Shown here one piece after another: positions 3,486 to 61,755 of a DNA stretch of 64,000 nt. Position 1 is the stretch's first letter. Each line of letters starts with the position of its first letter. Origin of the DNA: Solilutibacter silvestris (lineage in GTDB: Bacteria; Pseudomonadota; Gammaproteobacteria; Xanthomonadales; Xanthomonadaceae); assembly GCF_002895945.1 (NCBI RefSeq), contig NZ_NPZB01000001.1, positions 1,565,501-1,629,500 of the forward strand, read 5' to 3'. The translations under genes were made by a program, and so were the position numbers. Below the pieces are notes generated by a model. It saw nothing but the letters and a program-made list of their open reading frames with translations. It did no database searches and was not told where the DNA came from.

Positions 3486-3944
3486 CCTCTTGGCAGCAAA
3501 GTGCGTCCAAATCCGACCTTCTTGGCATTAGGGCCCGATGTCCGCTACTAGCCGACTTCGGCCCTTGTGCCTACGCCTACCATGTCGGTGTACTAATCAG
3601 AACCGATCGGTTTGGGTGGTCAGATTCATCGGTGTGCGCATCTGGGCTGCCGCCGGCTGCAGAACGAGCCATGTGGAGCCACCGAATGACGCCTCTCTGC
3701 ATCACTCGGCAGCTTGAGCTTGGGTCAGCGGGGAGCTGGGCACAAACATCGGCTATGGACATAGAAACGACGAATCGAGCCCCTAAATGCGGTCTAGCCA
3801 TGGACATCGTCTGTTCACGGCTGAGACCGCTCAAAAAAGGGCTTTCTTGCCTTGTCCATAGGCACATCACCTGCCGGTGTTACACGCACGTGCTCGGTCG
3901 CGGCGCTGGCGGCATCCTTAGTCCGCTCGATCGCGAGTACTGAC
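3486..3944. other. Gap between the helicase and mfd with no supported gene
   Basis: About 460 bp separate the helicase stop from the mfd stop (convergent). Open frames of about 100 codons exist on both strands, but neither has a ribosome site, recognisable motif or normal codon use. It marks the junction of accessory DNA and core chromosome. Confidence 0.5.
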
Positions 3945-6900: not shown

Positions 6901-7436
6901 TAAACGTCGAGCAGGCCACCACGCACGGCGAAGTCGCCCGGATCGAGCACCTGCGGCACGTTGCGGTAGCCGGCGGATTCGAGTCGACGTTTTTCGCCAT
7001 CAAGGTCGAGGCGTTGACCGGTCGCATAATCGAAGCGTCCGCCTTCGAGGTGGCGATGCGGTGCCAGTCGTTGCATCAAGGTCTGCACCGGCACCACGAC
7101 GATGCCGCGTTTCAGCCTCGGTAGTGCGTGCAAGGTCGCCAGTCGCTGCGAGACGATGTCGGGATGCGGACTGAACTGGTCGTAGGGCAGGGTTTCCCAA
7201 TCGGGGAATGGCTGCAGCGGCGTCGAGGCATCGCCGGCGAGCAGGGTGCGCAGGTCGCTTTCGAGTTGATGCGCGTGTTGGGTGTCGGCGGCGATCGCCA
7301 GGATCGGGCCGTCGTGCTCGCGCGCGGCGCGCGCGATCGCCCACGCCAGTCCGGAGCCGGTGCCGGGTGCGCGCCACCAGGCACGCGATTGGCCGGTGCG
7401 TGGCAAGGGAATGGGGGGAGGGGAGGACTTGCTCAT
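3945..7436 (-). CDS. mfd: Transcription-repair coupling factor Mfd
   Basis: This 1163-residue superfamily 2 translocase displaces stalled RNA polymerase and recruits UvrA for strand-specific repair. Visible parts are an N-terminal UvrB-like region, the RNA-polymerase-interacting segment (GAPIVHEDHGVGRYRGL), a Walker A GDVGFGKTE, a DEEQRFGV motif II, and a RecG-like second helicase half (QLHQLRGRVGRS), followed by the TRCF C-terminal domain. Length is normal for the family (about 1150). I chose the ATG at 7436 over the TTG one codon upstream. It is transcribed alone and faces the accessory helicase. Confidence 0.97.
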   Translation of the reverse strand: MSKSSPPPIPLPRTGQSRAWWRAPGTGSGLAWAIARAAREHDGPILAIAADTQHAHQLESDLRTLLAGDASTPLQPFPDWETLPYDQFSPHPDIVSQRLATLHALPRLKRGIVVVPVQTLMQRLAPHRHLEGGRFDYATGQRLDLDGEKRRLESAGYRNVPQVLDPGDFAVRGGLLDVYPMGTDTPYRIELLDDEIESIRGFDPESQRSLDRVDAVQLLPGRELPSDDAAFERAMAALRERFDIDTRRSALYQDLKAGLMPAGAEAWLPLFFEPERDGQRTSTLFDWLPANTLPLLGENVFEAAEKSWTQIGDRYEQRRHDIERPLLPPGELYLTPIALREHLNDGQRIEVCDEGHARRGEALALGVQPVPAVAIAGHQDRPAAALHDFLASYPGRVLIAAESAGRREALLDVLRAAELQPQVVASIAEMAAEAKPPRFAITVAPLEDGFALDAPLLAVLTERQLFPERATQTRRRKRAGREPEAIIRDLGELSEGAPIVHEDHGVGRYRGLITLEAGGERGEYLDIEYAKGDRLYVPVAQLHLVSRYSGASPETAPLHSLGGEQWSKAKKKAAEKVRDVAAELLDIQARRQARAGMRLDVDRSMYEPFAASFPFEETPDQHAAIEAVIGDVGSSLPMDRVVCGDVGFGKTEVAVRAAFVAAAAGKQVAVLVPTTLLAEQHYRNFRDRFADWPLRVEVLSRFKSAKESKAALEKLARGEIDVMVGTHKLLSADVHFKDLGLVIVDEEQRFGVRQKEALKSLRANVHLLTLTATPIPRTLNMAMAGLRDLSIIATPPANRLAVQTFVTPWDSALMREAFQRELSRGGQLYFLHNDLESIVRMQRELEELVPEARIGIAHGQMPERELEQVMLDFHRQRFNVLLCSTIIESGIDIPNANTIIINRADKFGLAQLHQLRGRVGRSHHRAYAYLVIPDRKSITADAKKRLEAITSMDELGAGFTLSTHDLEIRGAGELLGDEQSGQMAEVGFSLYTELLERAVRSIKQGHLPDADAREHRGAEVELHVPALIPDDYLPDVHTRLTLYKRISSAGDIDALRELQVEMIDRFGLLPDQVKHLFAIAELRLEATRLGIRKLDIGESSGRVQFEAKPNVDPMAIIRMIQSQPKRYQLDGPDRLRITELSAPDFETRQKLARGLFALLAISS

Positions 7437-7883
7437 CAAGCTGCGTATTTTAGCTTGGTCGCAATGGCGCGCGCTGGCGGCATGTTGTCACCCCGGGCAC
7501 TGCATGTCGTTACGAACGCAGTGAGGGATCAGCTTTCTCGCGCCCGGCGTGGGCCCGCTTGGGTGTCCCTATTGCCGACACGCCGTGAATCCATCCATGG
7601 AGGCTCAGCCGCGCCATCCGTGGCGCAGAATGGTCGGCCATAGGGACCCACCGCGCAGGCGCTGCCGGGCGGGGAGTGTTTCGTCACTTCGGTGAAGTCA
7701 CAACGTGCGAGCTGTTGCTCTCGCGAGCCGCCACAACACGCGCGCGGCCAGTGGGCGGTCTGCCCGATGCGCGGGCATACGAGGCAGGATGCCGAGTCGA
7801 GCCTCCATGGACGGATTCACGGCGTCCCGCGCATTGGGTCTGCCGGCCACGCCAGCCAGCGCGTGCGAGAAACTCCGCGCGTG
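7437..7883. repeat. Composite intergenic palindromic repeat, copy 1
   Basis: This gap between mfd and the TfoX-like gene carries two related palindromic units. Unit A is 7563-7647: outer arms GTGTCCCTATTGCCGAC and GTCGGCCATAGGGAC, inner stem GCGCCA...TGGCGC. Unit B is 7763-7838, inverted: arms CCGATGCGCGGG and CCCGCGCATTGGG. Both share a core close to CGTGAATCCATCCATGG. A third shared module (GTGAGGGATCAGCTTTCTCG) lies at about 7521-7540. The same modules recur at 20.3 and 24.8 kb in different order and orientation. I see no gene here; long open frames through these palindromes are artefacts. Confidence 0.85.
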
Positions 7884-8309
7884 CTAACGCTTCTTCTTCG
7901 CGGTAGCCTTCTTTGCAGGTGCTACTTTCTTCGCGATGGCCTTCTTCGCAGCTGCCGCTTTCTTCGCAGGTGCGACTTTCTTCGCAACCGCCACCTTCTT
8001 CGGCTTCGGCGCCGGCAACTCGTCCGCCGTCGCCAGCAACACGATGCGCAGGGCATCGCCATCGTCCAGCAACTCGTCGATCACCGGATAATCCTTCGCC
8101 TCCGGATACGGCGGCCGCATCGGCGCGTGCGGCACCAACTTTTTCGCGGCGGCGGTCGGCTTCAGGAACAGACTGTTGTCGCAACCGAACGCGACGACTT
8201 TCTCATCCACATAAAACGCGTATTCCCCGAACATCCGCCGCATGGTCAGGCGACTGCCCAGCCCGGCTTGCTCCATCACGTAATCGACGAAGATCCGGTC
8301 AGTCGCCAT
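7884..8309 (-). CDS. TfoX/Sxy N-terminal-domain protein with a Lys/Ala-rich tail
   Basis: The protein has 141 residues. Residues 1-100 match the TfoX_N fold (MRRMFGEYAFYVDEKVVAF region), found in competence regulators and in many stand-alone small proteins. The last ~40 residues are a histone-H1-like tail of AKK/APAKK repeats, which would bind nucleic acid by charge. The C-terminal TfoX domain is missing, so a competence-activator role as in full-length Sxy is not established. It lies 4 nt downstream of the GNAT gene on the same strand, so the two are probably co-transcribed. Confidence 0.85.
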   Translation of the reverse strand: MATDRIFVDYVMEQAGLGSRLTMRRMFGEYAFYVDEKVVAFGCDNSLFLKPTAAAKKLVPHAPMRPPYPEAKDYPVIDELLDDGDALRIVLLATADELPAPKPKKVAVAKKVAPAKKAAAAKKAIAKKVAPAKKATAKKKR

Positions 8310-8313
8310 TGTT

Positions 8314-8889
8314 TCAAGCGGCCTCGACCTCGGTCGAATCGCCTTCGGTCTCGGACAGATCCAACACCACGCGCACCAGCGTTTCCTTGCTGTTATCGCG
8401 ATCGATCTGGAATCCCAGCGAATCGGCCAAGTGCAGCATCGGTTCGTTTTCCTGCAGCACGTCGCCGGTCAGGCGTTCCAGCCCACGACCCTTGGCCCAG
8501 CGCGCCAGGCGCTGCAGCAGGTGGCGACCCAGACCCATGCCATGCACGTAGCGGCTGACCAGGATCGCGAATTCGGCGTCCTTGGTTCCCGGCACCGTAT
8601 GCGCGCGGGCAACGGCGCCAACCAGCGCCTCGCCGGGGGTGTAGGGCTCGGCCGCGACCAGCACGAAATCGGTGCGCGGATCGGGTTGGGTGAAGGACGC
8701 GGTCTCGGCCTCGGACAACTCCGACATCGCATGGTGATAGCGCAGTCGCACTTCTTCCGGCCCCAGCAGCGGGAAGGAGGCACGCAGCGGCGCGGCGTCC
8801 TCGGGGCGGATCGGTCGGATCAGGATCTCGCGTCCGTTGGCGAGACGCATGCGTTCATGCCACGGGGGCAGTTGGTTGCGGATAGCCAT
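8314..8889 (-). CDS. GNAT family N-acetyltransferase
   Basis: This 191-residue protein has a single Gcn5-related acetyltransferase domain. The acetyl-CoA-binding motif A is visible as VSRYVHGMGLGRHLLQRLA near residues 113-131, followed by the ENEPMLHLADSLGF segment typical of motif B. The N-terminus ILIRPIRPEDAAPL resembles the GNAT domain of acyl-CoA-synthetase-type protein acetyltransferases, but no NDP-forming synthetase part is present. Substrate unknown. It is the first gene of a pair with the TfoX-like gene. Confidence 0.85.
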   Translation of the reverse strand: MAIRNQLPPWHERMRLANGREILIRPIRPEDAAPLRASFPLLGPEEVRLRYHHAMSELSEAETASFTQPDPRTDFVLVAAEPYTPGEALVGAVARAHTVPGTKDAEFAILVSRYVHGMGLGRHLLQRLARWAKGRGLERLTGDVLQENEPMLHLADSLGFQIDRDNSKETLVRVVLDLSETEGDSTEVEAA

Positions 8890-47344: not shown

Positions 47345-47482
47345 GGATTTTTAGAGGTTACAGATCAAGCAATTAGACGTTAAGTAATTGATTTATAAGA
47401 AGGCGATATGCCGCGGAATTTCGCGGTATGATGCTTTTTGCAGGACATTTGCAGGACGTGCTGCATAACCGGAGAAGCAGGT

Positions 47483-48718
47483 ATGCCGCGAATTATCCGC
47501 GAGCCGTTGACGCTGAAAGTCATCAATCAGGCCAAGCCGACCGGCAAGCTGTACCGGCTGCGCGATGCCACTGTTCCTGGACTTCTGCTGCGCGTTACAC
47601 CGGCAGGAACGAAGGTTTGGGCTATCACGTGGGGAAGGGGGCAGGAGCGTGTCATCGGGACGTACCCTGTCATGACGCTGGAGGGAGCGCGGGAGGCCGC
47701 ACGTCGGGAGTTGGGGGAAGCCGCAGAGCATGGCGCTCCGGTGGCTGTGGTGGAGGCTCGCAAGCCGGCCAGCGAGAAGCCAATCACTCTCGGTGACTTC
47801 ATCCGTGATCATTTCGCCCCATGGGCGCTGGCCAACCAAAAGCAGGGGCAGGCGACCGTGGATGCGTTGGAAGCGTGCTTTGGCGGTCTCTACGAACGTG
47901 AACTGCGAAGTATCGCCGCGTTCGATATTGAGCGATTCAAGACTGCACGCAAGAAGCACGGGATCAAGCCGGCGACGATCAATCGCGACCTTGACCGTAT
48001 TCGCAAGGTGTATTCCTGTGCTTTCGAGTGGGATTTTCTGACCGAGCATCCACTGAGGAAGGTCAAGCGGATCAAAGTGGACAATGTCCGCGTGCGCTAC
48101 TTGAGCGACAGCGAAGATAAAGAGCTACGAAAGGCTCTGGCTGCGCGCGAAGTTGAGCGTAGGGCGAGCCGGGTTCGGCACAACGCATGGCATGAGGAAA
48201 GAGGTAGCGTTGGGCATCCTCAATGGCCGAAGGATGGCTACACCGACCATATCGTGCCCATGGTGTTGCTGGCGCTGAATACGGGTCTTCGCCGTGGCGA
48301 ACTGTTCGGGTTGGAATGGGGCAACTTGAACCTGCAGGCGCGTCTACTTACTGTTGAGGCGGGTAACGCGAAGTCCGGAAAAACCCGCCATTTGCCACTA
48401 AATGATGACGCCATGAGGATGTTGAAGCAGTGGAAAAAGCAGGGGGACGGCAAAGGGTTGGTCTTCCCGTCGTCAAGCGGAGCGAGGTTCAACAATATCA
48501 ACAAGGCATGGAGCGGCATCGTTGCAGCAGCAAAGCTGCCGGATTTCAATTTCCACGATCTGCGGCACGATTTCGCCAGCAAGCTGGTTATGGCCGGCGT
48601 GGATTTGAATACCGTTCGTGAGCTACTTGGGCATGCGGACATCAAGATGACATTGCGTTACGCGCATTTGGCCCCAGGCAAGCTGGCCGATGCAGTTTCA
48701 AGGATCAATCGGACCTAG
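47483..48718 (+). CDS. Tyrosine recombinase / site-specific integrase
   Basis: This 411-residue protein has an N-terminal arm-type DNA-binding domain (GLLLRVTPAGTKVWAITW), a core-binding SAM-like domain (about 105-190) and a catalytic domain with all key residues: Arg in TGLRRGELFGLEW, Lys in KSGKTRHLPL, HDLRHDFAS, LLGHADIKMT and nucleophile Tyr in LRYAHL. ATG 47483 follows GGAGAAGCAG. It is adjacent to the tRNA-Pro half-site and will drive integration and excision there. Confidence 0.94.
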   Translation: MPRIIREPLTLKVINQAKPTGKLYRLRDATVPGLLLRVTPAGTKVWAITWGRGQERVIGTYPVMTLEGAREAARRELGEAAEHGAPVAVVEARKPASEKPITLGDFIRDHFAPWALANQKQGQATVDALEACFGGLYERELRSIAAFDIERFKTARKKHGIKPATINRDLDRIRKVYSCAFEWDFLTEHPLRKVKRIKVDNVRVRYLSDSEDKELRKALAAREVERRASRVRHNAWHEERGSVGHPQWPKDGYTDHIVPMVLLALNTGLRRGELFGLEWGNLNLQARLLTVEAGNAKSGKTRHLPLNDDAMRMLKQWKKQGDGKGLVFPSSSGARFNNINKAWSGIVAAAKLPDFNFHDLRHDFASKLVMAGVDLNTVRELLGHADIKMTLRYAHLAPGKLADAVSRINRT

Positions 48719-51473: not shown

Positions 51474-51501
51474 TGACGGCCCCTACGGGGGCCGTTGTTT
51501 T
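51474..51501 (+). terminator. Rho-independent terminator
   Basis: Stem ACGGCCCC / GGGGCCGT with a short loop, then TGTTTTA. It closes the rightward operon 49634-51468 and touches the end of the convergent relaxase gene. Confidence 0.85.
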
Positions 51502-52543
51502 AACCCGGCCTTGGACCACGACGGCGCATCCTGGGACGCGGCCTTGGCGATGCCGGCGCAGGGGCGTCGTGACTGTCGAGCGGGTCCGGGTGCTCAGAGA
51601 TTTGTTCTTGGTCATCAGGCCTGTCAATGCGCCAAGGCGCATTGACTAGTGCTTCGTGCATTTCCATTAACTCATGGGTAGTGGGGAGCTGCTGGATGCT
51701 TCGAAAATGTGACAGAAATCGTTTTCGAAGTTGCTCAATATCTGCGCCCACGGACAAGAGCGTCATCGACCGTTCGGTCATTATTCGTAGCATTCTCCGG
51801 ACTCCTTCCAGCCACAAATTCACTATTTTTGTCTCTCGGTTCAGATCACCCGGTGTTGTACGAACACCGCGTCTCTCGAGCGTTGAAGCACGTGGGCCGA
51901 GATGAACCGTCGGCAGATCGGCGAGCGCGACGTCTCCGCCTTCCTCCATCGATTGACGTGCGTAGCTCCTGTGATCAATGCGAGATGAGGCTGTGCTGAT
52001 CTCTAGAACTTTGTTGACGCGCAAAGCCCAGCGCTCGCGCCACTGTTCCACCAGTTCCTTGTCGTTCCATTCTCGAGCTTTGTTGCCGAAGCCTTCATCA
52101 TTGATATGGCGTAGCGTGAGCAGGATATGAGCATGCTCATTACGCCGGTCACCCCGATTGCCAGGAGCGTGCATGGCGATATCGGCCACCATTCCCTGGT
52201 CAACGAACTCATCAGTTGCGAATCCGATGAGCAACATACGGTGTTGCTCATGTGATAGCTCATGGGGTAATGCAACTTCAATCTCTCGACAGAGCTGGGC
52301 GTCTTTGCGCTTTTCTCTGGCTTCGACACCGTTCCATAAATTAGAACGGTCAAGCATCCATGAAGGGGCATATTCCGGGGTCAGGATAAAGGTCTCCCGG
52401 ATGCCGATCTTACGCGTGAAGTCGTGTATTTCTCCAGTTCTCGCATCAGCAAGTCGCGTGCCTGAACGGTACGCAGCGGCAGCGGTAGCCGAGCGGCCAC
52501 TGCTGCGCCCGATGACTTTGGCTGCTAGATGAAAGATTGCCAT
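51500..52543 (-). CDS. mobL: MobQ-family relaxase (MobA/MobL)
   Basis: This 347-residue relaxase has the MobA/MobL signature: MAIFHLAAKVIGRSSGRS start, motif I Tyr in AAAAYRSG, and the metal-binding motif NEHAHILLTLR. It would nick the oriT-like site located 31 bp upstream of its start and pilot the strand into a helper conjugation system. Unlike RSF1010 MobA it has no primase domain fused; the C-terminus is basic and Pro/Arg-rich. Confidence 0.92.
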   Translation of the reverse strand: MAIFHLAAKVIGRSSGRSATAAAAYRSGTRLADARTGEIHDFTRKIGIRETFILTPEYAPSWMLDRSNLWNGVEAREKRKDAQLCREIEVALPHELSHEQHRMLLIGFATDEFVDQGMVADIAMHAPGNRGDRRNEHAHILLTLRHINDEGFGNKAREWNDKELVEQWRERWALRVNKVLEISTASSRIDHRSYARQSMEEGGDVALADLPTVHLGPRASTLERRGVRTTPGDLNRETKIVNLWLEGVRRMLRIMTERSMTLLSVGADIEQLRKRFLSHFRSIQQLPTTHELMEMHEALVNAPWRIDRPDDQEQISEHPDPLDSHDAPAPASPRPRPRMRRRGPRPG

Positions 52544-53097: not shown

Positions 53098-53776
53098 TCG
53101 AGCCTGTTTGCATCATTATGAAGGGGTCGAATATGGTGCGTGTGCCAGGATATCTGCATCAGTAGGCCGGGCATTCATAATTAGGCCGCTTACGACCCCA
53201 GCGGACGCTGGTGACTCCCGGTCAAAATGGAAAATCGGCCAAAATGCCTGAGCTGGCTCTCAATAGCGAGTCTAGTTCGGCCACCGATTCAAAGACGTGG
53301 TGCGCGCCAGTCGTGCGGGGGGCGCTGTTTCGCGAAGGAATGGATAGGCTCCTAAAGCATGAAGTTGGGGGGGTCTCGACCGCACTACATGGCCGGGACC
53401 GGCCCGACCGACGCCTAGTCGAGCCAGCTGCTACCGCTAGATCGCCAGTATTCGGGGGGGTGCCCGCCAAGGCTCGCGCTGGGGACGCTTTACTGTGGGA
53501 AGCCGCCCGTTGCGGTGTCAATACCCGCTATCCCCGGGGCAGGCTAAACGAGCTGCGCATCGGCGACCGCCACGTGGTTCCATCGCCTTATTTGATGCCG
53601 CATGCCGGGCCGGGACAGAACGTGGGCTCGGGAGCCCGAGGCAGAAAACCGGCGACGATCCATCAGCCTGTCGCTGGGTTACCGGTCGGGCCAACTGATA
53701 TCGATGTATAGGGTAAGGCCATTTGTAACGACTGGTCGGACGGCCCATATCGGGTTGGTCCCGACCGAGGTTTAGG
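53098..53776. other. 680-bp gap before the cargo operon, no supported gene
   Basis: No frame with convincing coding character was found. The right part (53700-53776) must hold the promoter and leader of the cargo operon and includes short GGTCGG/CCGACC inverted repeats (around 53729-53768) that could be operators. The stretch near 53210-53245 (GGTCAAAATGGAAAATCGGCC) resembles IS-end-like sequence and may be a relic. Confidence 0.45.
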
Positions 53777-54610
53777 GTGCCTACGAATATCAATCAGACC
53801 ATTGAAATGCCTGCGGCACCACTTACGGGAGCGCTACCTTTGATCGAGCCACTGCGAAAACAAGATAAGAACGGCGCCCCATACAGTAGATTTTCCGACA
53901 TCCAGAGCATGCTAATGACGCTGGATACTCTGCCGGACGCCGACATCGTGGCCCGGTGCAGGTTGGGCCGCGGAAACAGCGCCTTCGTGCCCATCGAGTG
54001 TGTGGTTCATATGTTGCGGCGCGGACTGCGTGCCAACAACGACGCGCTCACCAGTCCGCTGTTCACGGAGTTCCTTCAGCGCCTGCGCCGCCACATCCCC
54101 TTGCGTGAGGACAAAGAAAGCCACTTTCGCGTCCAGGTCTTCGAGCAGGTCCAGGATCGGCTGACCTCGCTTCTGGCCAAGGAATCCATCGAATACCAGG
54201 ACAAACTCGACTTCTGCGAGATCCAGTTCGCCGGGGCGCTGGTACGACTCCTGCAAGATGCCCGAAAAAAGGCCACGAAGGATAAAAACCGCAAGGCTCC
54301 CTTGATGAACGAGGAAACCGGGGAGGTCGACGCGCAGGTCGATCAGGCTGCAGGTTCGTTCAACCCGTTCGACCCGGAAAATATATCCGAGGAAAAGTAC
54401 CGGACGGTTCTCGATGAAGCGATGGAAGAGTTACCCGCCACGCAGAAAAGGATTCTCGAGATGCTGCGCAATAATATCCTCATTGACTCACAGGATCCGA
54501 CCGTCCCGACTATTTCGAAGACCCTGGGGAAGTCGGAGAAGACCATTCGCAACCAGCGCGACAAGGCTATCGCAGCCATCAAGGCGTTCGTGAACAAGGG
54601 AGAGCGATAA
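53777..54610 (+). CDS. Sigma-factor-like protein (region-4-type HTH at C-terminus)
   Basis: This 277-residue protein has a C-terminus of sigma-70 region 4 style: ELPATQKRILEMLRNNIL, then ISKTLGKSEKTIRNQRDKAI. The middle (about 95-175) is helical and would match region 2. The start is GTG 53777, with an internal ATG ten codons later as an alternative. It is coupled to the next gene by a TAATG overlap. It probably drives or represses transcription of the cargo. Other options are a terminase-small-like or plain HTH regulator. Confidence 0.6.
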   Translation: MPTNINQTIEMPAAPLTGALPLIEPLRKQDKNGAPYSRFSDIQSMLMTLDTLPDADIVARCRLGRGNSAFVPIECVVHMLRRGLRANNDALTSPLFTEFLQRLRRHIPLREDKESHFRVQVFEQVQDRLTSLLAKESIEYQDKLDFCEIQFAGALVRLLQDARKKATKDKNRKAPLMNEETGEVDAQVDQAAGSFNPFDPENISEEKYRTVLDEAMEELPATQKRILEMLRNNILIDSQDPTVPTISKTLGKSEKTIRNQRDKAIAAIKAFVNKGER

Positions 54611-55191
54611 TGTTGGCCCGTAAAAACAACCTATCCCTAGAAGAGATCCTGGACTCCTTTGCAATGGAGCCAAATCCCAGTGGCGAAGTGTTGGGTCGCT
54701 ATTTGGCCGACTTTCCTCAGTTTGCGGAGGACCTTGTCGATTTGTCCCAAGAGATGTTCCAGGTTGGCTTGGTGCAGGACCGGGAGCTTACGAGCCTGGA
54801 CAGCAATCGGATCAGTTCGGCTTGGAGTGTGCTTCAAGCCAGTATCGGTCAACCTTTGGCCGACCCGCTTGCGAGCCTATCGCAGCAGGTCATGGGCGAT
54901 CTTTCGGAGGTGCTGCAGGTCCCACGGCAAGTGATCCTGGCCTTTTGGGAAAGGCGAGTGCTGCCTGCGTCAGTGCCCCGTCAATTTCTCAACAGAATGG
55001 CGAGCGCTCTCGATGCGAGCGCACAATCGCTGATCGAGTCGCTCGCTCTTCCAAAGCAGGCACTCGCACGCAGCCACAAGGCCGACGAAAAGCCGACATC
55101 TGACGCCGACAAGCAGGCATTTGAGCGGGTGCTTCGAGACGCAAAAGTGCCTGAGGATCAGATTGCTGCCCTTCTGACAGAAGGCGCTTGA
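54610..55191 (+). CDS. Partner protein of the sigma-like factor, unknown family
   Basis: This 193-residue helical protein starts with SLEEILDSFAMEPNPSGEVLGRYLADFPQF. It has no Cys, no membrane helix and no known domain that I recognise. Being translationally coupled between a sigma-like gene and an ImmA/IrrE-type peptidase gene, it might be an anti-sigma or repressor whose cleavage by the peptidase releases the sigma-like factor; this is inference from gene order. Confidence 0.55.
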   Translation: MLARKNNLSLEEILDSFAMEPNPSGEVLGRYLADFPQFAEDLVDLSQEMFQVGLVQDRELTSLDSNRISSAWSVLQASIGQPLADPLASLSQQVMGDLSEVLQVPRQVILAFWERRVLPASVPRQFLNRMASALDASAQSLIESLALPKQALARSHKADEKPTSDADKQAFERVLRDAKVPEDQIAALLTEGA

Positions 55192-55192
55192 T

Positions 55193-58100
55193 GTGGATGG
55201 GGTGGAGATAGGCCGACAAACTGCTCAAGCCCTCCATCTAGCGGCAGTTGCAGCCGGAGGCGATCCGTGGTCGCCTTTGGCCTTCGCGTTAGCCCAAGTA
55301 GAACGCGAGGGCCTGTCGGTTAATCCCGCCATGCCTGGCGCCGATATTTTGGACGGCGGTCTGGCCTGCTATATCCCCAAAGCCGGTCTAATCGTTTACG
55401 AAGATAGCGACACGGATTTTGATCGGGCGTTCCGGATCGCCCACGAGCTCGGGCATCTGCACCTTGGCGACAGTGAGGAGGAAGACTTCACCGGTCCGCC
55501 TTACGCGATCAACCCAGACAGGCCAGCCGAGGCCGCGCCGATAGGTGTCGAGCGCGTGATCGACTATGGGCGACGCCAGCGACGAGAGGTCCAAATGGAC
55601 CTGTTTGCTCGTGAGTTTCTCTTGCCCCGGTCAGTTGCCAAGAAGCTCCATCTTGAAGACGGCATGACCGCCGCTCAGATTGCCAGCAAGCTCGGTGCCC
55701 CAGTCGCCGTGGTTGCGCAGCAGCTCTTCGATGCTCTGTTGTTGCCACCGGTCGAGCTTCCCAGCGACGGCAGTATCCCCGAGAAGCCGCTAAATGATCT
55801 CCAAGCGGCCGCCGCCAAGCACCAAGGCAGCGCCTTTCTGCTAGAAGCCGGGCCTGGCACTGGCAAGACCAAGACCTTGGTAGGGCGGATCAAGCACCTG
55901 CTGAGTCAAGGCATAGACCCACGGCACATTCTGGTGCTGACCTTTTCCAACAAAGCTGCCGCTGAGATTGTTGAACGCATTGCAGCGGTGGACGCAAAGG
56001 CGTCCGCGGCCATGTGGATAGGCACCTTTCACGCCTTTGGGTTGGATCTGCTCCGTAGGTTCTACGGCGAGCTCGATCTCCCAGCCGATGCCCGAATGCT
56101 TGATCGAACCGAAGCGGTCGAGCTCATCGAGAATGAGTTTCCTCGCCTGGGCCTGGTCCATTACCGCGACATATACGATCCAACCAAGATTATCTCTGAC
56201 CTTCTCGCCGCGATCTCGCGGGCGAAAGATGAAGTTGTATTTGCCGATGACTACGAGCGCTTGGCGAAGGAGATGCAGTCCTCTGCCAGCGAGGAAGAGC
56301 GCATCGCTGGTGACAAGGCCGCCGAGGTCGCACGCGTCTATCACACCTACGAGAAGCTCAAACGCAGCGTGCAGGCTGTGGATTTCGGCGACCTGGTGTC
56401 TTTGCCGGTCCGCCTATTGGAGGATAGCCAGGAGATTGCGCATGCGCTCAGGCAAGCCCACCAACATGTTCTTGTGGACGAATACCAAGATGTGAACCGA
56501 AGCAGCGTTAGATTGCTCAAAGCGCTATGCGGCGAAGGGCAGAACCTCTGGGTTGTCGGCGATGCGAAGCAATCCATTTACCGGTTTCGCGGCGCGTCCT
56601 CGGTCAGCATGGACCAATTCAATACTCATGACTTTCCGAATGGCGCGAGGGCACAGCTGAAGGAAAACTACCGTTCGGTCCCGGAAATCGCAAGGACCTT
56701 CTCCCACTTCGCCTCAGCCATGAAAGCGGCGAGCGCCAAAAGCGAGGTCGAGTCCAACCAAGCGGAAAGCGGCCTCGTTCCTTCCATGCGGCGCGTCGAT
56801 CGGAAGGTCGACCAGGTGGTGGCGCTTGCGGAGACCATCTTGGAGATGCGTTCTGCCGGCCACTCGTTCCGCGACCAGGCTGTGTTGTGCACGGGAAACG
56901 ACAAGCTTTCTGACTTTGGTGAACAGCTGGAGCGGATGGGTATTCCCGTCCTATTTCTGGGCAGTCTCTTCGAGCGCCCTGAGGTTAAGGATCTGCTGGC
57001 CGTGCTTACCTTGTTGGTCGATCGGCGGGCGACGGGCTTGCTGCGAACTGCCTGCATACCCGATTTCGCAATGTCCTTGGAAGATGTAGTCGTAGTTTTG
57101 AACTACCTGCGCACCGCAGAGCATGCCCCAGGTGCCTGGCGAGAACTGCCCCCAGCCGTGGAAGGGCTTTCTGCGGCAGGTAGGGCCGCATTGGTGAGCT
57201 TGGACGCAGCATTGGCCGGCCTGGAGCGCGAAAGCGATCCGTGGGAAGCCATGTGCCAGTTCCTGCTTGGGCCTTCCAAGCTGGTGGCGCAGTTGGTTGC
57301 ATCGGGCACGCCTGGCGATCGGGCCAAGGGTATAGCCGTCTGGCAACTGCTGAACTTCATGCGCGTGCAGCCGAAAGGGCAGGGCTTGCCCATCCAGCGA
57401 CTGACCGACCGCATCCGCAGGTTGGTGCGCTTGGCCGATGAGCGTGACCTACGGCAATTGCCCGCTGCCGCTCGCAGCATCGACGCCGTGCGGCTCATGA
57501 CCATTCATGGGGCCAAAGGACTTGAATTTGAAGTCGTCCATTTGCCAGGAATGAATCAGGGAGCCCTTCCGCGAACGGTGCCGCAAGGCCCATGTCCACC
57601 TCCGACGAACATGGTAGAGGGTGCTCATGGAGCAGCTGCGCAGTATCACAACGACGAGACGTTCAAGGAGCACGAGTGTCTTTTTTATGTCGGCCTATCC
57701 CGGGCGCGTGCACGGCTGTTCTTCTATGCGGTGAATTTCACAGACAGTAGCGGCGACCGAAAACCATCCAAGCGCGCGCAATCGCCCTTTATCGACCGCA
57801 TTGCTGGCTTCATCAGCAACGAAGTTGTAACGCCTAAGACAGAAGCGCCTGCGGTCCCGGAAAGCATTCCTGTAGAACTGGTAACGGAGGGCGGGGTCGT
57901 TCTCGAAGGCTATCAGGTGGGCCGCTACGACCATGGGTGTGAACGCAATTATCTGTATGTTCATTTGTTGCAAGTGGGCGGAAAGTCCAAGGCAACCGCG
58001 TTCTTGCAGATGCATAACGCGGTGCGGAAAGGCTATCAATCGGTGGTGCAAGGGGGTGATGCGGACCTGGCGGCCATAACAGCCGCATTGAGAGAGTCGT

Positions 58101-58612
58101 TTGCCGCAAGCGGATTGGACCAGCACGGGTATGTCGAGGACTATCTGGCGTTGGCCAATGGCATGCTCGCTTCTTTCCTGGCCAGCCGCGCGGGTCGCTC
58201 GGCCGAAAAGCCGGTCGCCCTGACGCTTTCCTTTGGTGATGACAAGATTTTGGTAACGCCCGACGACGTCCTGTTGGAGTCAGACGGCCGCAAAACCTAT
58301 CGCAAAGTGAGCACCGGAAAGACGCGCTCTGACGACGAAACCGACATCGGGGTCGCCTCGTTGCTGCTCGCTGCGCGAGCCATCGATCCATCAGCTCAGG
58401 TTGAGCTGGTTTACCTTTCGGATGGCAACAAACTGTTTTTGGATCGGTCGGCAAAGCAGTTGGATAACAGTAAGCACAAGGTGCAAGGTGCGATTGGCCG
58501 CGTTCGCGCCGGTCGCTTTATGGCAAAGCCATCCAACTTTACCTGCCCCACCTGCCCAGCGTTTTTTCTGTGCGGCCCGCTACCGTTTGGGGCATTGCAC
58601 AAATCGTTCTAG
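55193..58612 (+). CDS. Fusion of ImmA/IrrE-type metallopeptidase, UvrD-like helicase and RecB/Cas4-like nuclease
   Basis: This 1139-residue protein has three parts. Residues 1-180 are ImmA/IrrE-like with zinc motif HELGH (84-88) and AREFLLP (139-145). Residues ~200-850 are an SF1A helicase with GPGTGKT (220-226), DEYQD (429-433), GNDKLSDFG, IHGAKGLEFE and YVGLSRARARLFFY. Residues ~880-1139 look like a PD-(D/E)xK nuclease of the AddB/Cas4 kind, with YDHGCERNYLYVHLL upstream and a terminal CPTCPAFFLC cluster that could bind Fe-S. The start is GTG 55193, one nucleotide after the upstream stop. ImmA/IrrE proteins cut repressors upon DNA damage, while AddAB-type helicase-nucleases act on DNA ends, so the fusion could couple DNA sensing with proteolysis. 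Confidence 0.85.
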   Translation: MDGVEIGRQTAQALHLAAVAAGGDPWSPLAFALAQVEREGLSVNPAMPGADILDGGLACYIPKAGLIVYEDSDTDFDRAFRIAHELGHLHLGDSEEEDFTGPPYAINPDRPAEAAPIGVERVIDYGRRQRREVQMDLFAREFLLPRSVAKKLHLEDGMTAAQIASKLGAPVAVVAQQLFDALLLPPVELPSDGSIPEKPLNDLQAAAAKHQGSAFLLEAGPGTGKTKTLVGRIKHLLSQGIDPRHILVLTFSNKAAAEIVERIAAVDAKASAAMWIGTFHAFGLDLLRRFYGELDLPADARMLDRTEAVELIENEFPRLGLVHYRDIYDPTKIISDLLAAISRAKDEVVFADDYERLAKEMQSSASEEERIAGDKAAEVARVYHTYEKLKRSVQAVDFGDLVSLPVRLLEDSQEIAHALRQAHQHVLVDEYQDVNRSSVRLLKALCGEGQNLWVVGDAKQSIYRFRGASSVSMDQFNTHDFPNGARAQLKENYRSVPEIARTFSHFASAMKAASAKSEVESNQAESGLVPSMRRVDRKVDQVVALAETILEMRSAGHSFRDQAVLCTGNDKLSDFGEQLERMGIPVLFLGSLFERPEVKDLLAVLTLLVDRRATGLLRTACIPDFAMSLEDVVVVLNYLRTAEHAPGAWRELPPAVEGLSAAGRAALVSLDAALAGLERESDPWEAMCQFLLGPSKLVAQLVASGTPGDRAKGIAVWQLLNFMRVQPKGQGLPIQRLTDRIRRLVRLADERDLRQLPAAARSIDAVRLMTIHGAKGLEFEVVHLPGMNQGALPRTVPQGPCPPPTNMVEGAHGAAAQYHNDETFKEHECLFYVGLSRARARLFFYAVNFTDSSGDRKPSKRAQSPFIDRIAGFISNEVVTPKTEAPAVPESIPVELVTEGGVVLEGYQVGRYDHGCERNYLYVHLLQVGGKSKATAFLQMHNAVRKGYQSVVQGGDADLAAITAALRESFAASGLDQHGYVEDYLALANGMLASFLASRAGRSAEKPVALTLSFGDDKILVTPDDVLLESDGRKTYRKVSTGKTRSDDETDIGVASLLLAARAIDPSAQVELVYLSDGNKLFLDRSAKQLDNSKHKVQGAIGRVRAGRFMAKPSNFTCPTCPAFFLCGPLPFGALHKSF

Positions 58613-58657
58613 GCTGTGTTACCGGTCGAGCAATGTCGCTTCGATTAATAGGTGAGA

Positions 58658-58674
58658 CCGAACAATTCGTTCGG
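58658..58674. promoter_or_regulatory. Candidate operator before the ubiquitin-like operon
   Basis: CCGAAC-AATTC-GTTCGG is a perfect 6-bp inverted repeat with a 5-nt spacer, 26 bp before the multi-ubiquitin ATG in the 87-bp gap. It has the look of a repressor site. Arms GAAC/GTTC resemble some LexA boxes, though the spacer is one base longer than the Gram-positive form and this is not the known Xanthomonas LexA box. Confidence 0.5.
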
Positions 58675-58699
58675 CTAAATCTAAGAGGCGATACAAGAC

Positions 58700-59455
58700 A
58701 TGACTCCGAACGACCCGATTGATTTTGAAGACGTAGGCCAGGCCATCCGCGAGGACCGCGCTCTGCGCCCAGCCCCCCGTTACCGCATCCAGTTCGCTCA
58801 AGACGGGCTTGATTTCCGAGCCGTGGATGTCGAAAGCGCCATCCCTCTGGGCCAGCAGATCCTGGCCGCCGCAGGCCTGAGCATCGCCGGCGAGTTCAGC
58901 CTCTTTGCCATCCTGTCCACCGGAGACTTCGAGGACGTTCTCCTCAATGAACCGTTCGACTTGCGGGGAGCCGGTGCCGAGAAGTTCGTCGCTTTCCAAT
59001 CTGATCGTGATTACAGGCTGATGGTCAACCAGGCTCAGATGAGCTGGGGCAAGCCCGCTATTTCCGGGCGCACGCTCTATCAGTTGAGTGAGGCCAAAGA
59101 AAACGAGGTGGTTCTTCTGGAAGTACCTGGCGGCGATGATCGGCTGATCGAAGATTCCGACCTCATCGATTTGACCGCCGCTGGCGTGGAGCGCTTCTTC
59201 ACGGCCCACAAGCCCCAGCACGCCATCCAGATTGTGGTCAACGGGCGCGAAGTTGAAGTTCCCCAAAGCCACCAGACCTTCGAGGACCTGGTCGCAATCG
59301 CCTACCCGGGCGAGCCCCCGATGCCCAATGTCACCTACAGCATGACCTATCGAAAGGTCGCTTCCGTCCCCCACAGCGGCGAACTCGCTGCGGGCGGCTT
59401 CATCGAGGTCAAGAACGGGAGCATCGTCAATGTCGGACGCACTGTTCAGTCGTAA
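58700..59455 (+). CDS. Multi-ubiquitin-like (beta-grasp repeat) protein
   Basis: This 251-residue protein contains about three beta-grasp units (roughly 27-95, 96-167 and 168-248), each with an I/L-x-V-N strand start such as IQIVVNGREVEV. It ends FIEVKNGSIVNVGRTVQS. The last part matches the Multiubiquitin domain C-terminus, which has no di-glycine tail. It is the modifier of the operon, to be activated by the E1-like product next to it. The start has AGAGGCG upstream. The 3' end overlaps the E2/E1 gene by 26 nt. Confidence 0.8.
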   Translation: MTPNDPIDFEDVGQAIREDRALRPAPRYRIQFAQDGLDFRAVDVESAIPLGQQILAAAGLSIAGEFSLFAILSTGDFEDVLLNEPFDLRGAGAEKFVAFQSDRDYRLMVNQAQMSWGKPAISGRTLYQLSEAKENEVVLLEVPGGDDRLIEDSDLIDLTAAGVERFFTAHKPQHAIQIVVNGREVEVPQSHQTFEDLVAIAYPGEPPMPNVTYSMTYRKVASVPHSGELAAGGFIEVKNGSIVNVGRTVQS

Positions 59456-60605
59456 TGATGACCTAAAGCGCCTGCGGGACGCCGGCTACCTGATACAGGT
59501 AGTCGGCGGTCTCCTGGTGATGCGAGAGGTCCCGTATGTAAATGCGCAGAAGGAGGTCAAGCGCAGTGTATTGATCTCCACTCTGTGCCTCTCAGGCGAT
59601 CTGACCCAAAAGCCTGAGCCGCACACGGTCCAGTTCTGTGGCGATTTCCCATGCCAGGCCGATGGCGTGCCGCTGCAGGCGATTGCCGCGGGAACGGGAC
59701 AGTGGGACCTGGGTCATGGGCTGGCAGCCCAGCACATGTTTTCCAGCAAACCCGACAACCGCGGCTATCAAAACTACTTCGACAAGATGACCACCTACGC
59801 CAACATCCTCGCCGGCCCTGCCGCAGTGCTGTCGCCGGGAGTCTCGGCTAAGGTGTTCAGGGAGCCAGACGAGGACGAGGAGAGCGTTTTCAACTACCTG
59901 GAAACAGCTTCTGATCGCGTCGGCATCGGAGCGCTGACGGCTCGCCTCAAAGGGGAGCGGGTCGCCATAGTCGGGGTTGGAGGGACGGGGTCTTACATTC
60001 TGGATCAGGTTGCGAAGACGCCAGTAGCTGAAATCCGCCTCATCGACAAGGACGAGTTCCTGCAGCACAACGCGTTTCGGGCGCCGGGCGCTCCCAGCTT
60101 GGATAGCCTGCGGCAGGTCTGGAAGAAGGTGGAGTATTTCAAGGAAATCTACTCGCGCATACACCGGCATATCGTGGCGCATGCCGTCCAGCTCGATGCC
60201 AGCAACGTCCATGTGCTGGATGGCGTGACCTTCGCCTTCCTGAGCATGGACGCAGGGGAGCCCAAACGCGCGGTCATCGAACGGTTGGAGTCGATGGGGG
60301 TGTCCTTCATCGATGTGGGGATGGGTCTGGAACTCAAAGGCGATTCATTGGGTGGGATCTTGCGCGTAACTACGAGCACTCCTGGCGCCCGCGAGCACTT
60401 GCGCCAACGCGTCTCCTTCGATGGCGGCGGCGACGATGTTTATGTCTCGAATATCCAGGTTGCCGAGCTCAATATGCTCAACGCGGCACTGGCAGTGATC
60501 AAGTGGAAGAAGATCCGCGGCTTTTACAGGGACCTGGAACAGGAGCATCACTGCTCTTACACCATCGACGGAAACATGCTGCTCAATGGGGACCAGACAT
60601 CATGA
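59430..60605 (+). CDS. E2-like/E1-like fusion (ThiF adenylyltransferase with DUF6791-type N-terminus)
   Basis: This 391-residue protein has an N-terminal ~150 residues of the DUF6791/E2-like type (GYLIQVVGGLLVMREVPYVN, then HTVQFCGDFPCQADGVPLQA) and a C-terminal ThiF/E1 domain with the ATP-binding VAIVGVGGTGS (about 185), IRLIDKDEFLQHN and SIDVGMGLEL-like strand (FIDVGMGLEL). It would adenylate the C-terminus of the multi-ubiquitin-like protein. Whether a Cys or another residue carries the activated modifier is not clear. Its ATG lies within the end of the previous gene and its stop overlaps the next start (ATGA). Confidence 0.85.
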   Translation: MSDALFSRNDDLKRLRDAGYLIQVVGGLLVMREVPYVNAQKEVKRSVLISTLCLSGDLTQKPEPHTVQFCGDFPCQADGVPLQAIAAGTGQWDLGHGLAAQHMFSSKPDNRGYQNYFDKMTTYANILAGPAAVLSPGVSAKVFREPDEDEESVFNYLETASDRVGIGALTARLKGERVAIVGVGGTGSYILDQVAKTPVAEIRLIDKDEFLQHNAFRAPGAPSLDSLRQVWKKVEYFKEIYSRIHRHIVAHAVQLDASNVHVLDGVTFAFLSMDAGEPKRAVIERLESMGVSFIDVGMGLELKGDSLGGILRVTTSTPGAREHLRQRVSFDGGGDDVYVSNIQVAELNMLNAALAVIKWKKIRGFYRDLEQEHHCSYTIDGNMLLNGDQTS

Positions 60606-61051
60606 AGCACGACGTCCTCGAACCTCGTTTCGTCAAGGTGGTTCCACGCGACTTGGAGCCCGGTGTTCTCTATGTCTCGATGGAATATGGCACCGTCGTG
60701 CATAGTTGCTGCTGCGGGTGCGGCTTTGAAGTGGTAACACCCCTTACCCCCACCGATTGGCGCCTCACCTTCGATGGTGAAAGCGTGTCCCTATGGCCGT
60801 CGGTGGGAAGTTGGAATCTGCCTTGCCAGTCTCACTACGTAATCGAAAACAATCGTGTCAGGGAAGCACTGCAGTGGAGCACTGCCCGTATCGAAGCGGA
60901 GCGGACTAGGGATGGACAGGTCAAGGCGAAGTTCTACGCGCGACAGGCTGCCATCGAAGCGATCGATGCGCCCGTCATCGCTCCTGTGCCGCCTTGTCCA
61001 GAAGTCCGCCCGACTGGATTGCTTGCTAAGGTTCGCAGGTGGATCTTCTAG
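60602..61051 (+). CDS. DUF6527-type protein of ubiquitin-like operons
   Basis: This 149-residue protein has a zinc-like cysteine/histidine cluster VVHSCCCGCGFEVV and a later SVGSWNLPCQSHYVI segment; both are hallmarks of DUF6527. Members are nearly always found next to ThiF and multi-ubiquitin genes. A role as modifier processing or release enzyme, or target adaptor, has been suggested by context only, as far as I know. The C-terminus is basic with an amphipathic helix (LLAKVRRWIF). Translationally coupled to the E1-like gene. Confidence 0.8.
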   Translation: MKHDVLEPRFVKVVPRDLEPGVLYVSMEYGTVVHSCCCGCGFEVVTPLTPTDWRLTFDGESVSLWPSVGSWNLPCQSHYVIENNRVREALQWSTARIEAERTRDGQVKAKFYARQAAIEAIDAPVIAPVPPCPEVRPTGLLAKVRRWIF

Positions 61052-61755
61052 TGAAGCCCCAATGTGGCGCGTGAGGCCACCAAGCAAACTCGATGGCGCA
61101 GGTGCGAATTGAGATCGAAGTCGTATCCAGGGCGCGACATTGGTGAACAGCACCATCGCGCAATTCTTCGAGTGGCTGCTTCTGGCTGGAAGCCGCCACT
61201 TGCACTTGCCACATGGGCGGAGCCGTCGCCTCTGGATTGCCATTTGAGTCGCTGATAAGTTCATCTCAAACAGCCACCGATCGGCGACAGAGAGAAATCC
61301 TCCCAGCCGCAACTCAGCCAATTTCCCTGGGAGTCGGCTAATTCGAGCTGCGCCGCGGTTTTCTGCTGATATATGACCAGATACTCAGCGCGGTTCCTGA
61401 GTGTTATAGCCACTAGGCGGTCCAAATTGAGTCGGATAGGGAGGTGGGACTACCACCCCCCTATTTCGGACATCAGCAATTTCGATCGCAAATCGACCAG
61501 CAAAAAGAATTTGGTTGATTTGGATCACAATTGCTGCAGCACGGCCTCGCAAATGCAGACCAACTGACCCCCATCCCTACAGCAAAAGTGCAGATGCATA
61601 GAATGATGCGTCGGCGGTTGAACTTCGATTTCATCTGATTGTCCCTCACTAGATTAAGGATCTGAATTCCGCATTCCTAGCGAAACCTGTCCCGATGACT
61701 CTTCAGCGGCCAATCCGCACAGAGCCGTTAAGCTGCGAATCCATCCGAAGCTAAG
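61052..61755. other. 700-bp gap after the ubiquitin-like operon, no supported gene
   Basis: No convincing gene is found on either strand; short frames lack start signals. GC content is lower than the core. It may hold the true right end of the element or decayed sequence. No copy of the tRNA-Pro half-site is visible. Confidence 0.5.

Follow-up and report, generated by a model that had tools for sequence, protein, structure and literature searches.

A candidate protease-triggered sigma-factor switch encoded beside ubiquitin-like operons in Solilutibacter silvestris and other bacteria

Six genes in two coupled units

The DNA considered here is a 64,000-nucleotide stretch of Solilutibacter silvestris (contig NZ_NPZB01000001.1, positions 1,565,501 to 1,629,500; hereafter the window), in which six rightward open reading frames, A to F, encode a sigma-factor-like protein, a helical partner, a peptidase-helicase, and three proteins of a ubiquitin-like (Ubl) operon. 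An earlier note on this DNA had described the genes as two tightly coupled units, A-B-C and D-E-F, and its coordinates, overlaps and gaps were all borne out. A and B overlap by 1 nt, D and E by 26 nt, and E and F by 4 nt; calculated from the coordinates, the gaps are 1 nt between B and C and 87 nt between C and D. Our subject is the first unit, hereafter ABC, as a candidate controller of the Ubl operon that follows it. The genes and the domains of C are listed here.

53777-54610, + strand: A, sigma-factor-like protein, 277 aa; GTG start, with an ATG at 53807 possible
54610-55191, + strand: B, helical partner, 193 aa; possible XRE-like helix-turn-helix (HTH) at about residues 92-145
55193-58612, + strand: C, 1139 aa; ImmA/M78 peptidase, UvrD helicase and iron-sulfur (Fe-S) PD-(D/E)XK-fold domain
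55376-55726, + strand: Peptidase_M78 domain of C, residues 62-178, HExxH at 84-88; Pfam 2.5e-12
55790-57727, + strand: UvrD-type SF1 helicase core of C, residues 200-845; Pfam 7.9e-65 and 2.6e-32 (UvrD N/C)
57938-58573, + strand: Fe-S PD-(D/E)XK-fold domain of C, PDDEXK_1; catalytic motif apparently gone
58700-59455, + strand: D, three-domain multi-ubiquitin-like protein, 251 aa
59430-60605, + strand: E, DUF6791 and ThiF (E1-like adenylation) protein, 391 aa
60602-61051, + strand: F, DUF6527 protein, 149 aa; ATG start, the longest open reading frame beginning at 60503

Sigma region 4, the -35 binding domain expected of an ECF-like sigma factor, lies below the Pfam cut-off in the window A, and Sigma70_r4_2 was found in 36 of 47 A homologues at E<=0.01. 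When a predicted model of A (pLDDT 88) was compared to the PDB with Foldseek, the top-ranked neighbours were sigma factors (sigmaE-RseA, SigH, SigK, AlgU); with E. coli sigmaE bound to RseA, 206 columns were aligned at a Foldseek prob of 0.97, an E value of 0.065, a TM-score of 0.24 and a root-mean-square deviation of about 20 Å. The model of B (pLDDT 89) has a helical N-terminal half and the possible HTH at about residues 92-145, whose Foldseek neighbours, all weak, include the 434 repressor (prob 0.90, E 0.9) and DdrO (prob 0.84, E 1.2). DdrO is the substrate of the IrrE peptidase.

When the C-terminal 260 aa of the window C were scanned alone, PDDEXK_1 was matched at 1.1e-6, and the same domain was found in this part of 18 of 18 homologues at E<=1. 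The conservation of C was followed in a 65-row alignment of C-like proteins, which takes in three extra UvrD rows (L018, L037 and L054). The M78 HExxH is kept at H84 in 62, at E85 in 60 and at H88 in 61 rows, the Walker A GKT and DExQ residues of the helicase in all 65, and the four Fe-S-type cysteines in 61. The presumed (D/E)xK columns, by our own choice of columns, hold mostly R and R (40 and 39 rows). Since the peptidase and helicase motifs and the cysteines are kept and the (D/E)xK columns are mostly R, C appears to be a peptidase-helicase that carries a pseudo-nuclease domain of DNA-binding type. The earlier description of C as an ImmA/IrrE-UvrD-nuclease is thus upheld for the peptidase, the helicase and the PD-(D/E)XK fold, but the catalytic motif, as read from the alignment, is apparently lost, and a helicase-nuclease effector was set aside as the principal reading for that reason. 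C resembles AddAB/Cas4-type helicase-nucleases and GajB of Gabija in its UvrD helicase and its PD-(D/E)XK fold with Fe-S-type cysteines; it differs in the apparent loss of the motif, the fused M78 domain, and the lack of a GajA partner. Gabija itself was rejected, no GajA model being present among the PADLOC matches listed for the six proteins (for C, 25 of 57 rows). Relatives of C on viral contigs comprised 80 loci, in which the matched ranges cover the helicase part only.

In the second unit, D matched Multi_ubiq in three stretches in Pfam (2.7e-44) and PDB entry 9cd2 (4e-26), E matched DUF6791 (5.2e-55) and ThiF (1.5e-9) in Pfam as well as NCBIfam NF004802 above its cut-off, and F matched DUF6527 in Pfam (6.4e-23). 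E probably adenylates D. The operon had been likened to Bub-type operons, and the likeness extends to the multi-ubiquitin modifier, the ThiF E1 and the DUF6527 neighbour, the first and last being present as in the Bub locus L015. It does not extend to the fusion found in Citrobacter BubCD (PDB 9ea4): E carries DUF6791 at its N-terminus, not a JAB-like half fused to the ThiF E1, and its match to BubCD was limited to ThiF (residues 176-254, E 3e-4). Membership of Bub was rejected on this basis. Membership of Bil (bacterial ISG15-like), an antiphage defence system, was also rejected; D, E and F matched no PADLOC Bil model, and the window operon has DUF6791-ThiF and DUF6527 genes and neither a BilB E2 nor a BilC JAB gene.

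The C-terminus of D (59421-59455 in the window) ends in a conserved ...NVxxTxxS with a terminal serine, also seen at the other DUF6791-type loci except the broken locus L061. Because the last residues of D are coded within the 26-nt overlap with E, this conservation is ambiguous as to frame and could be of either.

Ubiquitin-like modules beside ABC in other genomes

A scan of genome contigs with the C alignment gave at least 582 relatives, of which 80 were taken. Leaving out 12 loci matched in the helicase part only (L086-L097) gave 68 C-type loci, and setting aside 8 with less than 3 kb downstream left 60 usable for linkage. A Ubl module lay near C in 56 of these 60, which supports the proposal of the earlier note that both units belong to one larger system and speaks strongly against chance neighbourhood. 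Of the 68 loci, 64 were found with our own profiles to hold B and 51 to hold A; the loci come from Pseudomonadota, Myxococcota, Planctomycetota, Verrucomicrobiota, Nitrospirota, Chloroflexota and Acidobacteriota. The six genes recur in the same order on five plasmids of unlike hosts (Klebsiella, Acinetobacter, the cyanobacterium Leptolyngbya, and two of Rhizobium), with differing flanks; in one Rhizobium record (L008) C is split in two frames.

The modules standing by ABC are of several kinds: DUF6791, BubCD type, Bub-like JAB-ThiF, multi-ubiquitin with JAB and ThiF, and Bil. The E protein of Robbsia (L015) matched the PDB sequence of Citrobacter BubCD at 2e-140, and the Bub-like type matched it at 2e-28. 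All four genes of the L068 operon matched PADLOC BilA-D (1e-53 to 2e-168); this was the single Bil locus scanned whole, and the remaining Bil labels come from profiles built on such loci. In Methylobacterium brachiatum (L074) a B-C pair, with no A recovered by profile, precedes a D gene whose protein is the same as the solved 'Ubl-BilA' (8u38). A quick tree was made from 62 C proteins bearing six labels, one of them 'none', which truncated loci carry. It requires 12 label changes, and its starred branches call for no fewer than 3 each for DUF6791 and Bub, 4 for Bub-like and 5 for Bil.

In an even draw of 398 genomes of the host phylum, the host's own included, C was found in 6 and B in exactly the same 6, and a multi-ubiquitin gene adjoins C in all 6. 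DUF6791 was found in 8 of the 398, only 3 of which have ABC, and in 3 of the 6 genomes with ABC the place of D-E-F is taken by a Bub or Bub-like module. The refuting observation named in the earlier note, that the two units occur apart with regularity, is thus half borne out: what holds is ABC with some Ubl module, and the exact pairing of ABC with D-E-F is not obligatory.

Two further arrangements were observed. On a Rhizobium beringeri plasmid (L016) one ABC lies between two Ubl modules of different kinds, the second being a divergent DUF6791 module in front of it. In an Armatimonadaceae locus (L085, 13245 onward) homologues of A, B and C are present with no Ubl module, and the next gene is WGR-domain-like by eye; it is possibly another target of the same switch.

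The surroundings of the window cassette include the following features.

47438-48718, + strand: tyrosine integrase; Phage_integrase, Pfam 3.9e-33
51500-52543, - strand: MobA/MobL relaxase; Pfam 1.3e-66
53184-61186, strand not assigned: cassette common to Lysobacter tolerans UM1 (L018); blastn, 92-98% identity

The mobile setting is real because the integrase and relaxase are nearby. When L018 was compared to 44-64 kb of the window (blastn, E<=1e-20), the match was confined to 53184-61186, that is, to the cassette plus about 0.6 kb before A, and the integrase and relaxase at 47-52 kb lie outside it. Since L018 shares the cassette alone, the earlier view that the genes ride on an integrative mobilizable element cannot be taken as established, the closeness of the two mobility genes being the part that stands. 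No empty integration site was visible, both flank genes tested being absent from the 16 other genomes of the genus, and megablast of the cassette against E. coli genomes gave no match. The plasmid loci hold other defence-like or mobile genes, as would be expected if the two units were mere neighbours in defence islands with no functional link. That explanation is very improbable and is largely refuted by the linkage and motif results: the 56 of 60 linkage extends over several phyla, order and spacing are fixed, the loci share the motif described below, and the sharing with another genome follows the cassette exactly.

A two-box motif before the operons

A motif, TTWCCGGTC-N14-CGATTR, is present in the DNA that follows C and precedes the Ubl operon at most DUF6791 and Bub-like loci, and at 10 of the 23 Bil loci. 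The window has it twice.

53679-53705, + strand: two-box site before A, TTACCGGTC-N14-CGAT; matrix score 15.4
58619-58647, + strand: two-box site before the Ubl operon (D), TTACCGGTC-N14-CGATTA

The exact TTACCGGTC-N14-CGAT occurs at these two positions only (53679 and 58619) in the 2.85-Mb genome, and the reversed pattern nowhere; a repeat finder run on 46.2-62.5 kb gave the two sites as its first-listed direct repeat. A search of 52.7-61.4 kb for sigma-70-type promoters found none, with 2.9 expected in shuffles. Across loci, a simple two-box pattern matched 40 of the 88 gaps examined and 17 of the 68 stretches upstream of A, compared to 217 of 22,880 windows of 160 bp. Before the two-box form was recognised, shared-word scoring of the DNA before A against the C-D gap in 55 loci had been suggestive at most.

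A weight matrix was then trained on 23 DUF6791-type gaps with spacers of 13-16 allowed, and all 23 training sites have a 14-nt spacer. Above the 99% level of the null, made of random windows, sites were found in 27 of 28 DUF6791-type loci, among which the training loci are counted, in 13 of 16 Bub-like, 4 of 7 Bub, 10 of 23 Bil and 1 of 3 multi-ubiquitin/JAB loci, and in 2 of the 11 loci that have no module. Raising the level to 99.9% left 25 DUF6791-type, 11-12 Bub-like, 3 Bub and 5 Bil loci, no multi-ubiquitin/JAB locus and 1 locus without a module. Null windows of 110 bp were first set against tested stretches of 140 bp, and a rerun at 140 bp gave the same counts at 99%. The highest-scoring null windows (up to 26.0) consist largely of real-looking sites, either within A or ahead of the second Ubl operon of L016, which if anything makes the null over-strict. 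Among 16 Ubl operons without ABC, described below, the motif was found in none (best score 7.8 against a threshold of 11.6). In 16 diverged loci, the spacer holds 0.27 bits per position and the boxes 1.45 and 1.56, values that for the boxes arise partly by construction, the sites having been picked by pattern and the 16 rows including the near-identical pair of the window and L018. Two unlike boxes at a fixed distance before a start codon look like a promoter for an alternative sigma factor.

With the matrix, a second site was found within the A gene at 45 of 68 loci, its position being 193-226 nt upstream of the stop codon, and controls inside C gave 7 of 88 and 1 of 88. It is possible that this site is an internal promoter for B-C. 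Counting sites either before or inside A, 55 of 68 loci have one; the in-A copy of the window is below threshold (8.7).

Three side observations concern the motif and its surroundings. On a Pseudomonas koreensis plasmid (L017, 9025-14665), IS66 genes follow ABC with no Ubl operon, and the two-box site after C is kept (score 21.4). In L016 the minus strand holds a further two-box site (score 24.3), directed to the divergent Ubl module. In many C-D leaders, an inverted pair GAGCCG...CGGC can be seen by eye about 10 nt past CGATTR and before the ribosome site; no consensus hairpin was obtained from 18 C-D leaders.

A could instead be an ordinary repressor or activator bound to two half-sites and cut directly by ImmA, as CapP cuts CapH. 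In keeping with this, region 2 of a sigma factor, which binds the -10 box and core RNA polymerase, was not detected by Pfam among the 47 A homologues, many of the listed plasmid rows label homologues of A as response regulators, and pairs of HTH and ImmA genes occupy the same place in sister operons. The two boxes, however, differ in sequence, the spacer is 14 nt in 23 of 23 sites although 13-16 was allowed, the first-ranked fold neighbours of A are sigma factors, and B would need another role. We regard this alternative as rather unlikely.

Other controller-like genes and the proposed switch

Sixteen Ubl operons without ABC were collected, comprising ten of the DUF6791 type (five chosen plasmid loci and five drawn) and six of the Bil type (four plasmid and two drawn). 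The five diverged DUF6791 loci on plasmids (L009-L013) were hand-picked and not drawn, as were nine of the 35 plasmid records with BilD (L207-L215), and L208 and L220 were excluded from the 16, their operons being incomplete. A controller-like gene was found near 12 of the 16, and an M78 peptidase in 10: HTH and M78 genes in L013, L194, L207, L213, L214 and L219, an HTH-M78 fusion in L010, and M78 in L192 (Pfam 0.0017, below the cut-off), L215 and L218. L012 has a WYL gene, with a 3.3-kb gene intervening, and L195 has HTH/GHKL and winged HTH (wHTH) genes; in L009, L011, L193 and L196 no controller-like gene was recognised. The M78, HTH, WYL, CapK and CapS profiles used here were seeded from L010, L012, L013, L192, L194, L195, L207 and L212-L214, so that the seed loci rest on Pfam or record annotation, and L215, L218 and L219 are profile matches. 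In 385 alphaproteobacterial genomes there were five BilD-like matches: two follow B and C genes, with no A recovered by profile, and the other three lie near M78 genes, one of these three being incomplete. Two of the sister loci have unusual neighbours. Upstream of the DUF6791 operon of L009 (Runella plasmid, 2830-8015) are genes for an HTH protein, for a PD-(D/E)XK nuclease and for an 801-aa protein with a weak likeness to Piwi, and L012 (Rhizobium etli 8C-3, 4318-8707) has its WYL regulator and a TM0106-type nuclease-helicase in that place.

The controller-like genes of these operons resemble CapH+CapP, CapW and CapK+CapS. According to the excerpted text of PMC13373217, 219 of 544 Bub operons have CapW or CapH+CapP at their side and 59 have CapK+CapS, and CapP is a single-stranded DNA (ssDNA)-activated protease that cleaves the repressor CapH; the excerpt mentions no UvrD fusion for these controllers. 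ABC resembles CapH+CapP, a controller of CBASS, Bub and other immune operons, in having an M78 peptidase, with HExxH intact in the window C, next to DNA-binding partners and upstream of an immune or Ubl operon. In contrast to a stand-alone peptidase with one HTH repressor, the window peptidase is fused to UvrD and an Fe-S pseudo-nuclease, and it is accompanied by a sigma-like DNA-reading partner, a third protein (B) and the two-box motif. CapW and CapK+CapS have their counterparts in the WYL gene of L012 and the HTH-GHKL and wHTH genes of L195 (the STAS part of the latter by eye) near sister Ubl operons, but their protein families and mechanisms are unrelated to ABC. DdrO/IrrE and ImmR/ImmA also combine an M78 peptidase with an XRE-type regulator, and the predicted HTH of B is weakly DdrO-like, but there the peptidase is stand-alone, with no helicase and no sigma-like partner. 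ABC also precedes BilABCD-type operons in other genomes, and BubCD-type operons in Robbsia and others. The ABC module was not recognised in the open-access papers searched; the gene-neighbourhood tables of Ye et al. 2026, Gong et al. 2025, Chambers et al. 2024 and Burroughs et al. 2011 may list it.

A controller role for ABC fits because of its place, its peptidase, the motif and the swapping of modules, and it fits better than a DNA-cutting effector. ABC might still be an effector or sensor arm in which C unwinds or binds invader DNA and marks DNA or proteins for the Ubl machinery, with A secondary. The near-constant linkage of ABC to Ubl modules, the helicase motifs in 65 of 65 rows and the Fe-S cysteines in 61 of 65 are consistent with such an arm; against it are the apparent loss of the catalytic nuclease motif and the occurrence of ABC, with its own promoter motif, in place of controller-like genes. 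We hold it to be improbable, a little more so than the repressor or activator role for A.

The reading we favour, with moderate confidence, is that ABC is a DNA-sensing, protease-triggered sigma-factor switch for the adjacent Ubl operon. A would be a diverged sigma factor that reads the two-box promoter before the Ubl operon and, in the window, before A itself, and B would hold A in check. The helicase and Fe-S domain of C would engage damaged or incoming DNA, or ssDNA made by them, and this engagement would activate the ImmA/M78 protease of C, so that B would be cut, A freed, and the operons turned on. E would then activate D, which would become attached to its targets and may be processed or taken off again by F, and the putative outcome would be immunity. 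The order of the genes, their linkage, the swapping of modules, the protein domains and the motif are direct sequence observations; A as a working sigma factor, B as inhibitor and substrate, DNA as the trigger, conjugation and immunity are inferred. The parts of this proposal are not equally strong. It is close to certain that ABC and the Ubl operons work together, and quite likely that ABC controls the operon; it is probable that this control runs through a sigma factor, and cleavage of B as its means is evenly balanced. We lean slightly towards the broader statement that a dedicated sigma factor, an XRE-like restrainer and a helicase-fused protease use one promoter code for Bil, Bub and DUF6791 operons across phyla.

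Several observations weigh against the switch. Besides the undetected region 2, the fold matches of A are weak (best E 0.013, none at E<=0.001, TM-scores near 0.2) and those of B weaker, its best (E 0.45) being an unrelated chain; the HTH of B was found by Pfam in 4 of 57 members. No Ubl module was found at 4 of the 60 loci (L050, L064, L082 and L085), and on a Cupriavidus sp. EM10 plasmid (L209, 4623-10347) A and B precede a Bil-type operon with no C, an unrelated minus-strand gene without a Pfam match lying in between. Controllers and ABC are not strictly exclusive: an M78 gene stands next to A in L028 and L068 and about 8.6 kb away in L083, and L212 has a WYL gene. Of the operons behind ABC, 13 of 23 Bil loci and 3 of 3 divergent Bub loci are below the motif threshold, and the conservation of DNA adjoining C could be partly due to common descent. 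A site before A was found in 15 of 68 loci by matrix and 17 of 68 by pattern, and autoregulation there is therefore not general. The in-A site keeps the 14-nt spacer without exception and falls in a single reading frame, over the conserved A residues YR...AI, so protein constraint may explain it. In support of a DNA role, its first box tracks the gap box of the same locus more closely than those of others, with 8.07 of 9 matches to its own locus against 7.03 shuffled (n=40) and none of 5000 shuffles as close; thinned to <70% C identity, which leaves relatedness in part, the values were 7.89 and 7.10 (n=19), again 0 of 5000.

The excerpted text of PMC12687455 has Ubl operons of this sort appearing to act mainly against phages, and that of PMC13373217 reports no phage protection demonstrated for Bub operons; a missing inducer could be one reason for the latter. 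The present analysis supplies concrete candidates, namely a 29-bp promoter-like site, a sigma factor, an inhibitor and a protease, and it links DNA-end processing machinery to ubiquitin-like tagging in bacteria. ABC and its motif also serve as a marker for finding more Ubl operons. If the switch is as proposed, the engagement of foreign or broken DNA would gate the expression of Ubl conjugation, which would be a previously undescribed class of immune control.

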